Shown here in pieces: positions 59,197-61,440 of a DNA stretch of 64,000 nucleotides. The notes under the pieces were generated by a model. The model was given only the letters and a program-made list of their open reading frames with translations, was not told the DNA's origin and ran no database searches. The stretch is taken from contig NC_012029.1 of NCBI RefSeq assembly GCF_000022205.1, positions 930,001 to 994,000 on the forward strand. Direction: 5' to 3'. The position numbers and the translations under genes are program-made. Positions within the stretch are counted from its first letter, which is position 1. Every line of letters starts with the position of its first letter. Source of the stretch: Halorubrum lacusprofundi ATCC 49239. Lineage in GTDB: Archaea; Halobacteriota; Halobacteria; Halobacteriales; Haloferacaceae.

Positions 59197-60078
59197 CTAC
59201 CGTCGGTCGAGGGCGACCCGCGCCCGCTCGATGATCGCGGCGCGGACCCGATCCGGAGCCGTACCCTTGCTGCCCTCGCCGAACCGAACGGGCGTCTCCC
59301 TCGCGATCGCCTCGACGACTCGGTCGGCGACCGCGTCGACGGTCGCGCCCGCGTTCCGCCGATCGAGGTCGTCGACGACGCGCTCGAACCGGTCGTCGGT
59401 GGCATACTCCGAAACGATCGCCTCGATATCGTCTGGAACGTCGACTTCCGGAACGGTCTCGCCCGCGTCCGTCGCCGTACCCGCTGCGAGAAGCTTCCCG
59501 CGTCCTTGGCGCTTGTTGCGCACGACGACCCCGGCGGCCGGACCGTCGCGCCACGCCGAGTCGGGGATCGCGTAGGCCTCCGGGTCGAAGTCGCGGGCGT
59601 TCACCTCGCGCTCGACCGCGTTGACCGAGTCGAGGCCGACCCCCTCAAAGATGGCCGCGGCTGCGTCCGGCGGACGGAACGATCCCGTCCCCGACGCCGC
59701 CTGTGACCCCGCCTGCGACGCGATCCACACGTCGGTCCCGAGGAACGGCGGAAGCCGGTCCCAGTCGTAATCGGTTCCCTGATAGTGGGTGGCGACGCCG
59801 AAGAAGATCACGCCCTCGGGGTCGTCGACCGCGTCTCGGAGGGCCTCGCGGTCGAACCGGTCGCGGACGTGCCTGACGGCGGGCCGGAGCGCGATGGGGA
59901 CCGTCTCTGGGTCCGCGTACGTCGTTTCGGGGTCGCCAAAGCGGAGGAGGCCGGACTCGTCCATCCGGAATCGGAGCCCCGTCCCGTCGATCAGTTCGAG
60001 GAGCCAGAGGTGGCCCGTGAGGAGGTCGTCGGGGGCCTGCGAGTCGCGAACGTCGGGAAGGTGTGGGAACGAGCGCAT
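59197..60078 (-). CDS. RNA ligase-like nucleotidyltransferase, degenerate active site
   Basis: 293 residues. It looks like an RNA/DNA ligase adenylation domain: LLELIDGTGLRF (26-37) at motif I, VIFFGVATH (90-98) at motif III, PFLGTDVW (111-118) at motif IIIa and AGVVVRN (182-188) at motif IV. The KxDG lysine is replaced by L29 (LIDG), the motif III Glu by V95 and the motif IV Glu by A182. It therefore seems unable to form the usual enzyme-AMP. The remaining 90 residues are helical. It is divergent from the Fe-ADH-like gene, 150 bases apart. Confidence 0.65.
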   Translation of the reverse strand: MRSFPHLPDVRDSQAPDDLLTGHLWLLELIDGTGLRFRMDESGLLRFGDPETTYADPETVPIALRPAVRHVRDRFDREALRDAVDDPEGVIFFGVATHYQGTDYDWDRLPPFLGTDVWIASQAGSQAASGTGSFRPPDAAAAIFEGVGLDSVNAVEREVNARDFDPEAYAIPDSAWRDGPAAGVVVRNKRQGRGKLLAAGTATDAGETVPEVDVPDDIEAIVSEYATDDRFERVVDDLDRRNAGATVDAVADRVVEAIARETPVRFGEGSKGTAPDRVRAAIIERARVALDRR

Positions 60079-60228: not shown

Positions 60229-61440
60229 ATGCTACCGATCGCAGACTCCTTCGAACACGACTATCAGGGCTGTGAGATCCGGTACGGCCGCGGGCGCGTC
60301 GCCGAACTCGGCGATGCCCTCGACGAACGGGAACTCGGTGACGCCCTCGTCGTCTGCGGCTCGAACGTCGGCGCCAACGAGGACCTGATGGACCCGATAC
60401 GCGAAGGGCTCGGTGACCGGCTCGCAGGGGTCTTCGACGGGACGACCCCGGACAAGCGCGTCGAGACGGCGTTCGATCTGCTCGATCGACGGGCCGAGGT
60501 CGGCGCAGACGCTCTCGTCGCGGTCGGCGGCGGGAGCAGCCTCGACATCGCGCGGCAGGCGACGCTCCTCGATGTCGACGGGCGGGACCTCGCTGACCTT
60601 CGCGCGGACGCTGAGGTCGGGGCGGACGCGCTCGGCGACCTCGCACCCAGGACCGACCCCGCGCTCCCCGTCGTCGTGATTCCGACGACGTTCGCGGGCG
60701 CAGACGTCTCGACAGGCGGCTCACTGGAGGTGCTCGACGCGGACGCCTCGCCCACCGGCCAGCCGATGACGGTCAGCGGCGGGGGCGCGATGCCCGCGAT
60801 CGACCTCGCGGACCCGGCGCTGTTCGAGACGACCCCGCAGTCGGTGCTGGCGGGCTCGGCCATGAACGGATTCAACAAGGGGATCGAGACGCCGTACGCT
60901 GCCGACGCTTCGCCCGTGAGCGACGCGACCGCGGTCCACGGGACGCGGCTCCTGCGGGACGCGCTCCCGCACGTCGCCGGCGACCGGCCCGACGATCCGG
61001 CGGCGACCGACCGCGCCGTGGTCGGCGCGCTGCTCGTCCAACTCGGACGGAAGATCTCGGTGATTCACGCGTTCGGCCACGGCTTCGCGCGTCGGTACGA
61101 CGTACAGCAGGGGACCGTCCACGCGGTGGTCGCGCCGCACGTCCTCGCGTACCTCTTCGACGAGGTGGACGCGAGCCGGCGGGCGCTCGCGAACGGGCTC
61201 GGCGTCGCGACCGCGGGCCGCGACGACGCCGCGATCGCCGAGGACGTGGTTAGCGAGGTCGCCGCGGTCCGCGACTCCCTCCCGGTCCCCTCGCGGCTCC
61301 GCGAGCTGGACCCGGTCGACGAAGACGATTTCCCCGCGATCGCCGAGTACATCGCCGACGACTGGTCGATGGAACAGGCCCCCGCCGACCTCGACGCGAC
61401 GCCCGAAGCGATCGAGGGTGTGCTACGCGAGGCGTGGTGA
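60229..61440 (+). CDS. Iron-ADH-fold protein with altered metal site
   Basis: 403 residues. The NAD(P)-binding GGGSSLDIAR (100-109) and general layout are those of Fe-dependent alcohol dehydrogenase. Aligned to FucO, its four metal ligands D196, H200, H263 and H277 fall exactly on N213, K217, H280 and Q294, with H284 matching H267. Three of four ligands are lost, so no iron or zinc is expected at this site. It may use the fold for another reaction or for binding. The ATG at 60229 is preferred to one 51 nt upstream. Confidence 0.75.
   Translation: MLPIADSFEHDYQGCEIRYGRGRVAELGDALDERELGDALVVCGSNVGANEDLMDPIREGLGDRLAGVFDGTTPDKRVETAFDLLDRRAEVGADALVAVGGGSSLDIARQATLLDVDGRDLADLRADAEVGADALGDLAPRTDPALPVVVIPTTFAGADVSTGGSLEVLDADASPTGQPMTVSGGGAMPAIDLADPALFETTPQSVLAGSAMNGFNKGIETPYAADASPVSDATAVHGTRLLRDALPHVAGDRPDDPAATDRAVVGALLVQLGRKISVIHAFGHGFARRYDVQQGTVHAVVAPHVLAYLFDEVDASRRALANGLGVATAGRDDAAIAEDVVSEVAAVRDSLPVPSRLRELDPVDEDDFPAIAEYIADDWSMEQAPADLDATPEAIEGVLREAW

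Follow-up and report, generated by a model that had tools for sequence, protein, structure and literature searches.

Type-III (iron-containing) alcohol dehydrogenases (ADHs) bind their metal through four ligands, which in the E. coli lactaldehyde reductase FucO, a metal-dependent member, are D196, H200, H263 and H277, H267 being non-coordinating (PMC5125639). Maleylacetate reductases (MARs) are active without a metal, a property attributed to the replacement of the Asp ligand by Asn or Arg (PMC5125639). In the MAR PcpE, both His172 and Lys238 are essential, the His172 Ala mutant being inactive, and the segment 235-LHHKLCHTLGG-245 represents the MAR signature (PMC5741723). A MAR encoded on a Comamonas plasmid, whose numbering is the same as that of PcpE, carries N168, H172, H237 and H251. 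Metal-free use has also been proposed for the HEPD and FeADH2 subfamilies (PMC5125639); compared by description, FeADH2 (cd08183) and some HEPD (cd08182) proteins have Gln in place of the Asp ligand, unlike the Asn of the family described below. Among the papers searched, we found none that deals with MARs or metal-free Fe-ADHs from haloarchaea.

We analyzed a window of 64,000 nucleotides from the genome of Halorubrum lacusprofundi ATCC 49239 (NC_012029.1, positions 930,001 to 994,000), which encodes a protein of this superfamily with an altered ligand set. The open reading frame extends from an ATG at 60229 to a stop codon at 61438-61440; initiation at an alternative upstream GTG (60178, in frame) would lengthen the protein by 17 residues, and the ATG is favoured because the starts of relatives match position 60229. 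The features of the gene are, with the basis of each in brackets:

60229..61440, + strand: Fe-ADH-fold protein of 403 aa with the ligand set N213/K217/H280/Q294 (ORF, Pfam, alignment, AlphaFold2, Foldseek)
60454..60456, + strand: K76 codon (family alignment)
60526..60546, + strand: nucleotide-binding loop GGGSSLD, G100-D106 (family alignment)
60865..60867, + strand: N213 codon AAC, at the position of FucO Asp196; Asn in MARs too (alignment)
60877..60879, + strand: K217 codon AAG, equivalent to FucO His200 and to the essential His172 of the MAR PcpE (alignment)
61066..61068, + strand: H280 codon CAC, equivalent to FucO His263, the sole retained ligand (alignment)
61078..61080, + strand: H284 codon CAC, equivalent to FucO His267, a non-ligand (alignment)
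61108..61110, + strand: Q294 codon CAG, equivalent to FucO His277 (alignment)
61120..61122, + strand: H298 codon, invariant and common to MARs; Asn in FucO (alignment)

Both profile and fold place the protein in the type-III ADH superfamily (PF00465/PF25137), confirming the Fe-ADH fold that a preliminary description had read from the sequence. Pfam matches to Fe-ADH (8e-21) and ADH_Fe_C (7.9e-14) are above cut-off, and the AlphaFold2 model (pLDDT 93.6, pTM 0.92) retrieved FucO (TM 0.84-0.85) and Bacillus methanol dehydrogenase as top matches in a Foldseek search of the PDB, with the MARs 3hl0, 3w5s and 3jzd slightly below. No NCBIfam equivalog model came near its cut-off: the model of the regulatory ADH-like protein ErcA (NF041833; cut-off 550 bits) gave 94.7 bits and that of glycerol-1-phosphate dehydrogenase (NF002022; cut-off 413 bits) 15.7 bits, and both assignments were rejected. 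No Rfam family matched the region.

The fold, the dinucleotide loop and the positions of His263 and His267 are common to FucO and the haloarchaeal protein. In a MAFFT alignment that was unconstrained with respect to the motif, FucO D196, H200, H263, H267 and H277 fall on N213, K217, H280, H284 and Q294, and G96, G97 and G98 on G100, G101 and G102; aligning the protein to 1rrm/FucO with phmmer or with the profile gives the same placement. Since H267 is not a ligand, three of the four metal ligands (Asp196, His200 and His277) are replaced, as the preliminary description had stated, and H280 is the one that is kept. A further difference from FucO lies at its Asp39, which corresponds to a Gly at position 44.

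This ligand set is shared widely among haloarchaea. A first scan of reference genomes, with seeds some of which carried the motif, gave 62 haloarchaeal loci besides an ordinary bacterial Fe-ADH. The key positions were intact in 61 of these haloarchaeal loci, every one of which reads N-K-H-H-Q. As a safeguard against seed bias, whole-genome profile searches were run and the most divergent members added, and the outcome was unchanged. The residue counts below cover the 160 distinct haloarchaeal members scoring at least 400 bits. By profile search (best E <1e-90), about 194 of the 292 sampled Halobacteria (roughly two thirds) carry the family, and none of the non-haloarchaeal genomes searched does. 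The five positions read NKHHQ in 151 members, NKHQQ in five, NKHNQ in two and NHHHQ in two. Position 217 is thus Lys in 158 members and His in two, and position 284 is His in 153, Gln in five and Asn in two, while N213, H280, Q294, H298, E220, T153, G100 and G102 are invariant in 160/160, as is K76 in the 159 members that could be scored there. The Asp-His-His-His set of metal-dependent type-III ADHs is replaced by N-K-H-Q in 158/160. The dinucleotide loop of the superfamily is present, and the GGGS motif reported earlier as kept is so in the form GxG, the middle glycine (G101) being Ser or Ala in 20/160 members. Position 44 is Gly in 157/160, which suggests, as read from the alignment, that the enzyme would use NADP(H) or both cofactors.

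Within Halorubrum, dN/dS values of 0.12-0.30 denote purifying selection. The earlier proposal that a consistent N/K/H/Q set among haloarchaeal proteins would mark a distinct family is thus borne out by the search (151/160 NKHHQ), and the contrary case, in which this copy alone would be altered, is excluded, the set being shared over many genera. The family is a maintained, conserved haloarchaeal subfamily that is apparently undescribed. Broken copies with a frameshift or stop occur at L057, L102 (genome G264), L104 (G201) and G256:C2:3305138-3306072; G256 retains two further intact family copies beside the broken one. Genome G026 (L130/L131) encodes both L098, a member reading N-K-H-H-Q, and L122, a relative reading N-H-H-H-Q, and this pair offers a natural comparison of His and Lys at position 217.

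MARs (cd08177; MacA, PcpE, GraC) have in common with the family the fold, the Asn ligand change, Tyr223 and His298, and as a class they are metal-free. The combination of N213, Y223 and H298 is absent from the metal ADHs compared. The two groups share approximately 25% identity and differ in that the family has Lys for His172, Gln for His251 and an added Lys76, which is found neither in MARs nor in metal ADHs. In the alignment, K217 corresponds to His172, H280 to His237, A281 to Lys238, H284 to His241 and Q294 to His251. The family therefore shows the MAR replacement of the Asp ligand by Asn or Arg (N213 in every member) and lacks the signature LHHKLCHTLGG with Lys238, reading instead (V/I)IHAFGHG with Ala281 (position 281: Ala in 155, Ser in four, Thr in one of 160). 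In 158/160 members it also lacks the essential His172, in place of which stands Lys217. With signature and His172 both missing, we do not file the protein as a MAR, and with signature and Lys238 missing, MAR activity cannot be inferred from sequence.

A tree of 53 proteins was computed with and without the five trait columns. All metal-type sequences (D-H-H-x-H and one DQHEH) lie on one side of a branch supported at 100/99, and at 100/100 once the trait columns are removed, so that FucO and the family stand on opposite sides of this split. The other side holds the MARs (N-H-H-H), haloarchaeal N-H-H-H proteins, two N-H-H-Q proteins and the N-K-H-Q family, as well as two long-branch bacterial proteins, one R-H-H-H and one N-M-T-N (Paracoccus). 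The latter, an unannotated Fe-ADH-fold protein on a Paracoccus denitrificans plasmid (L166, 6001-7182), reads N-M-T-H-N over the five positions and represents another ligand-less branch. Without the trait columns, the N-H-H-Q pair groups with the N-K-H-Q family at 100/100, and support for the N-K-H-Q family alone is 91/97 (99/97 with them). An exact clade of MARs and the haloarchaeal groups is absent from the tree and is not rejected (AU p 0.122).

The haloarchaeal relatives of the family carry part of its changes. In the NHHHQ relatives (L100, L122), a sister group, positions 213 and 294 are changed as in the family and His stands at 217; in the NHHHH relatives (L105-L108, L123), only N213 is changed and His is kept at 217 and 294. 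Such relatives are consistent with a stepwise replacement, and the simplest reading of the tree, made without formal reconstruction, would be that D->N came first, followed by H277->Q and then by H200->K. The NHHHH group (context in L133-L135) has MAR-like ligands without the HHK signature, and is flanked by putative acyl-CoA synthetase-like, acyl-CoA dehydrogenase-like and MaoC-like genes, named from their sequences.

In the window, the ADH gene lies between a divergent gene (59197-60051, - strand), which adjoins gyrB, and a MatE transporter gene. The divergent gene has no Pfam match, and its relatives are found only in some Halorubrum loci. Across the family, neighbourhoods vary strongly, with no single operon common to all members. 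The most frequent neighbour is a tandem-VOC ring-cleaving dioxygenase, which matches MhqO (5.8e-80) and the 2,6-dichlorohydroquinone 1,2-dioxygenase PcpA (1.8e-47). Of the 34 genomes searched, 12 have it at most 2.3 kb from the ADH gene, whereas chance would place it within 5 kb in 0.17, a comparison that is uncorrected for shared ancestry. The eight closest dioxygenases (the query's own copy and those with 69-76% identity to the query) all stand beside the ADH gene, in G162, G117, G250, G131, G242, G126, G156 and G164, at no more than 2.3 kb and in most cases no more than 110 bases, and the more distant paralogues are mostly located away from it. The dioxygenase and ADH frames overlap in L125 and L138. 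A BKACE gene, identified at 3.5e-51, occurs in several of the dioxygenase-ADH loci, usually divergent and upstream, and IclR regulators, FAA hydrolase or dienelactone hydrolase genes lie near the ADH gene at other loci. MAR genes, too, often adjoin a ring-cleaving dioxygenase gene, as in part of the family, and the bacterial MAR cluster of a Cupriavidus plasmid comprises a FAD monooxygenase, a VOC protein, a hydrolase and the MAR. Both partner genes are missing beside the ADH gene in Halorubrum, including the window genome, where we found no dioxygenase match at 1e-20 and no BKACE.

The other neighbours are mixed and include gyrB, que genes, shikimate genes, malate synthase, galactonate dehydratase, aldehyde dehydrogenase together with TPP enzymes, and ribB with riboflavin kinase. 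In six loci from Natrialbaceae (L126, L128, L138, L139, L154, L180), the ADH gene and a queC-queE-queD cluster of conserved order are oriented convergently on opposite strands; these three genes serve 7-cyano-7-deazaguanine synthesis. A role linked to gyrase or to the que genes was considered on the basis of synteny and rejected, as these arrangements are lineage-specific and the que genes lie on the opposite strand. A putative aroA-ADH-aroC order on one strand is seen at L045 (5266-11745), L049 (6615-11683) and L130 (6565-11920), where the neighbours were named by eye; aroA encodes EPSP synthase and aroC chorismate synthase. This order, from which a role in the shikimate pathway was considered, is limited to two separate clades.

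Taken with its place in the tree, the replaced ligand set makes it likely that the protein cannot use the normal metal, as the preliminary description had concluded, and we propose that the family very probably acts as a metal-free reductase on the MAR side of the superfamily. That description had also held the metal ligands to be required for alcohol dehydrogenation, a requirement that applies to the alcohol dehydrogenases and not to the superfamily as a whole, MARs being active metal-free. Of the new role that it had suggested, the additional His->Lys and His->Gln pair is indeed new, whereas the loss of the metal is not: MARs are metal-free with Asp->Asn/Arg, and the family stands on their side of the tree. 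A catalytic task for Lys217, likewise suggested earlier, is plausible because this residue aligns exactly with the MAR His172 that is essential in PcpE, and from the alignment we lean, if only slightly, towards regarding Lys217 as catalytic. An unsaturated or keto carboxylate would then accept hydride from NAD(P)H; Lys217, assisted by H280, N213 and H298, would do the work of the ADH metal or the MAR His172 as electrophile or proton donor. Lys76, a further invariant cation, may bind the carboxylate, and the histidines would contribute with it to binding the acid substrate. Taken as a whole, a metal-free NAD(P)H reductase of the MAR-side fold, with carboxylates from ring fission as its proposed substrates, is our main explanation, and we consider it probable.

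Where the operon exists, the VOC dioxygenase would cleave a hydroquinone-type ring, the ADH-fold enzyme would reduce the maleylacetate-like product to a 3-oxoadipate-like beta-keto acid, and BKACE would cleave the latter with acetyl-CoA to acetoacetate and an acyl-CoA. As a family, BKACE enzymes accept 3-oxoadipate, which would underlie this last step. A maleylacetate-type substrate at these loci is possible, if somewhat doubtful. More tentative still is the combined proposal of a metal-to-lysine swap in a family spread across the haloarchaeal class, in which the catalytic Lys would have moved from the MAR Lys238 to the His172 site (a former metal ligand), and an undescribed archaeal route of hydroquinone-type ring cleavage made up of an MhqO-like dioxygenase, the reductase and BKACE. 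The proposed route is confined to loci with the operon, and the window genome lacks both partners.

This lack, together with the mixed neighbourhoods (malate synthase, galactonate dehydratase, aldehyde dehydrogenase, TPP enzymes, ribB and riboflavin kinase), would suit a metal-free carbonyl reductase or alcohol dehydrogenase in which Lys217 takes the place of the metal as electrophile and an ordinary aldehyde or ketone, varying by lineage and without connection to aromatic ring fission, is the substrate; Lys/Asn pairs do act in other dehydrogenase folds. The tree position near the MARs with Asn213, Tyr223 and His298, and the repeated linkage to the dioxygenase in several arrangements, make this rather unlikely. 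We regard as improbable a non-catalytic or regulatory protein comparable to ErcA, which would have kept NAD(P) binding and lost its chemistry, although three of four ligands are gone and the genomic settings are scattered: the replacing residues, like H280, H298 and K76, are invariant in the 160 members, whereas variation would be expected at sites that were decaying or had a purely structural part, and the score against the ErcA model (94.7 bits versus 550) also argues against it.

A metalloenzyme with a changed site, in which H280, H284, H298 and N213/Q294 would bind another ion, gains some credit from the invariance of H280 and H298 and from the glycerol dehydrogenases, which keep one of three metal histidines and yet bind Zn (PMC5125639). 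It is nonetheless quite improbable, as H284 is Gln or Asn in 7/160 members, a Lys at a ligand position disfavours a cation, and the MAR relatives, with more histidines, are still metal-free (PMC5125639). A weak residual metal site made up of H280, H284 and H298 may persist. As for decay or a sequencing fault in the window copy, to which the few broken copies elsewhere (L057, G201/L104, G264/L102) might lend weight, its probability is negligible: the frame is intact, 151/160 members over many genera have the same set, and conservation and dN/dS rule it out.

The metal-free reductase that we favour is, within the metal-free type-III ADHs, new in its pair of His->Lys and His->Gln replacements, metal loss being already known. 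If this reading is true, the only annotation given to a large and widespread haloarchaeal family, 'iron-containing alcohol dehydrogenase family protein', is a misnomer; its members would be expected to work without iron and to lack alcohol dehydrogenase activity. The linkage of dioxygenase, reductase and BKACE would provide a concrete prediction of how haloarchaea handle hydroquinone-type aromatics. The surviving N-H-H-H and N-H-H-Q relatives make the path from metal to lysine accessible to mutagenesis. The interest of the family would lie less in a wholly new enzyme class than in a clear example of lysine replacing a metal, with intermediate forms surviving.
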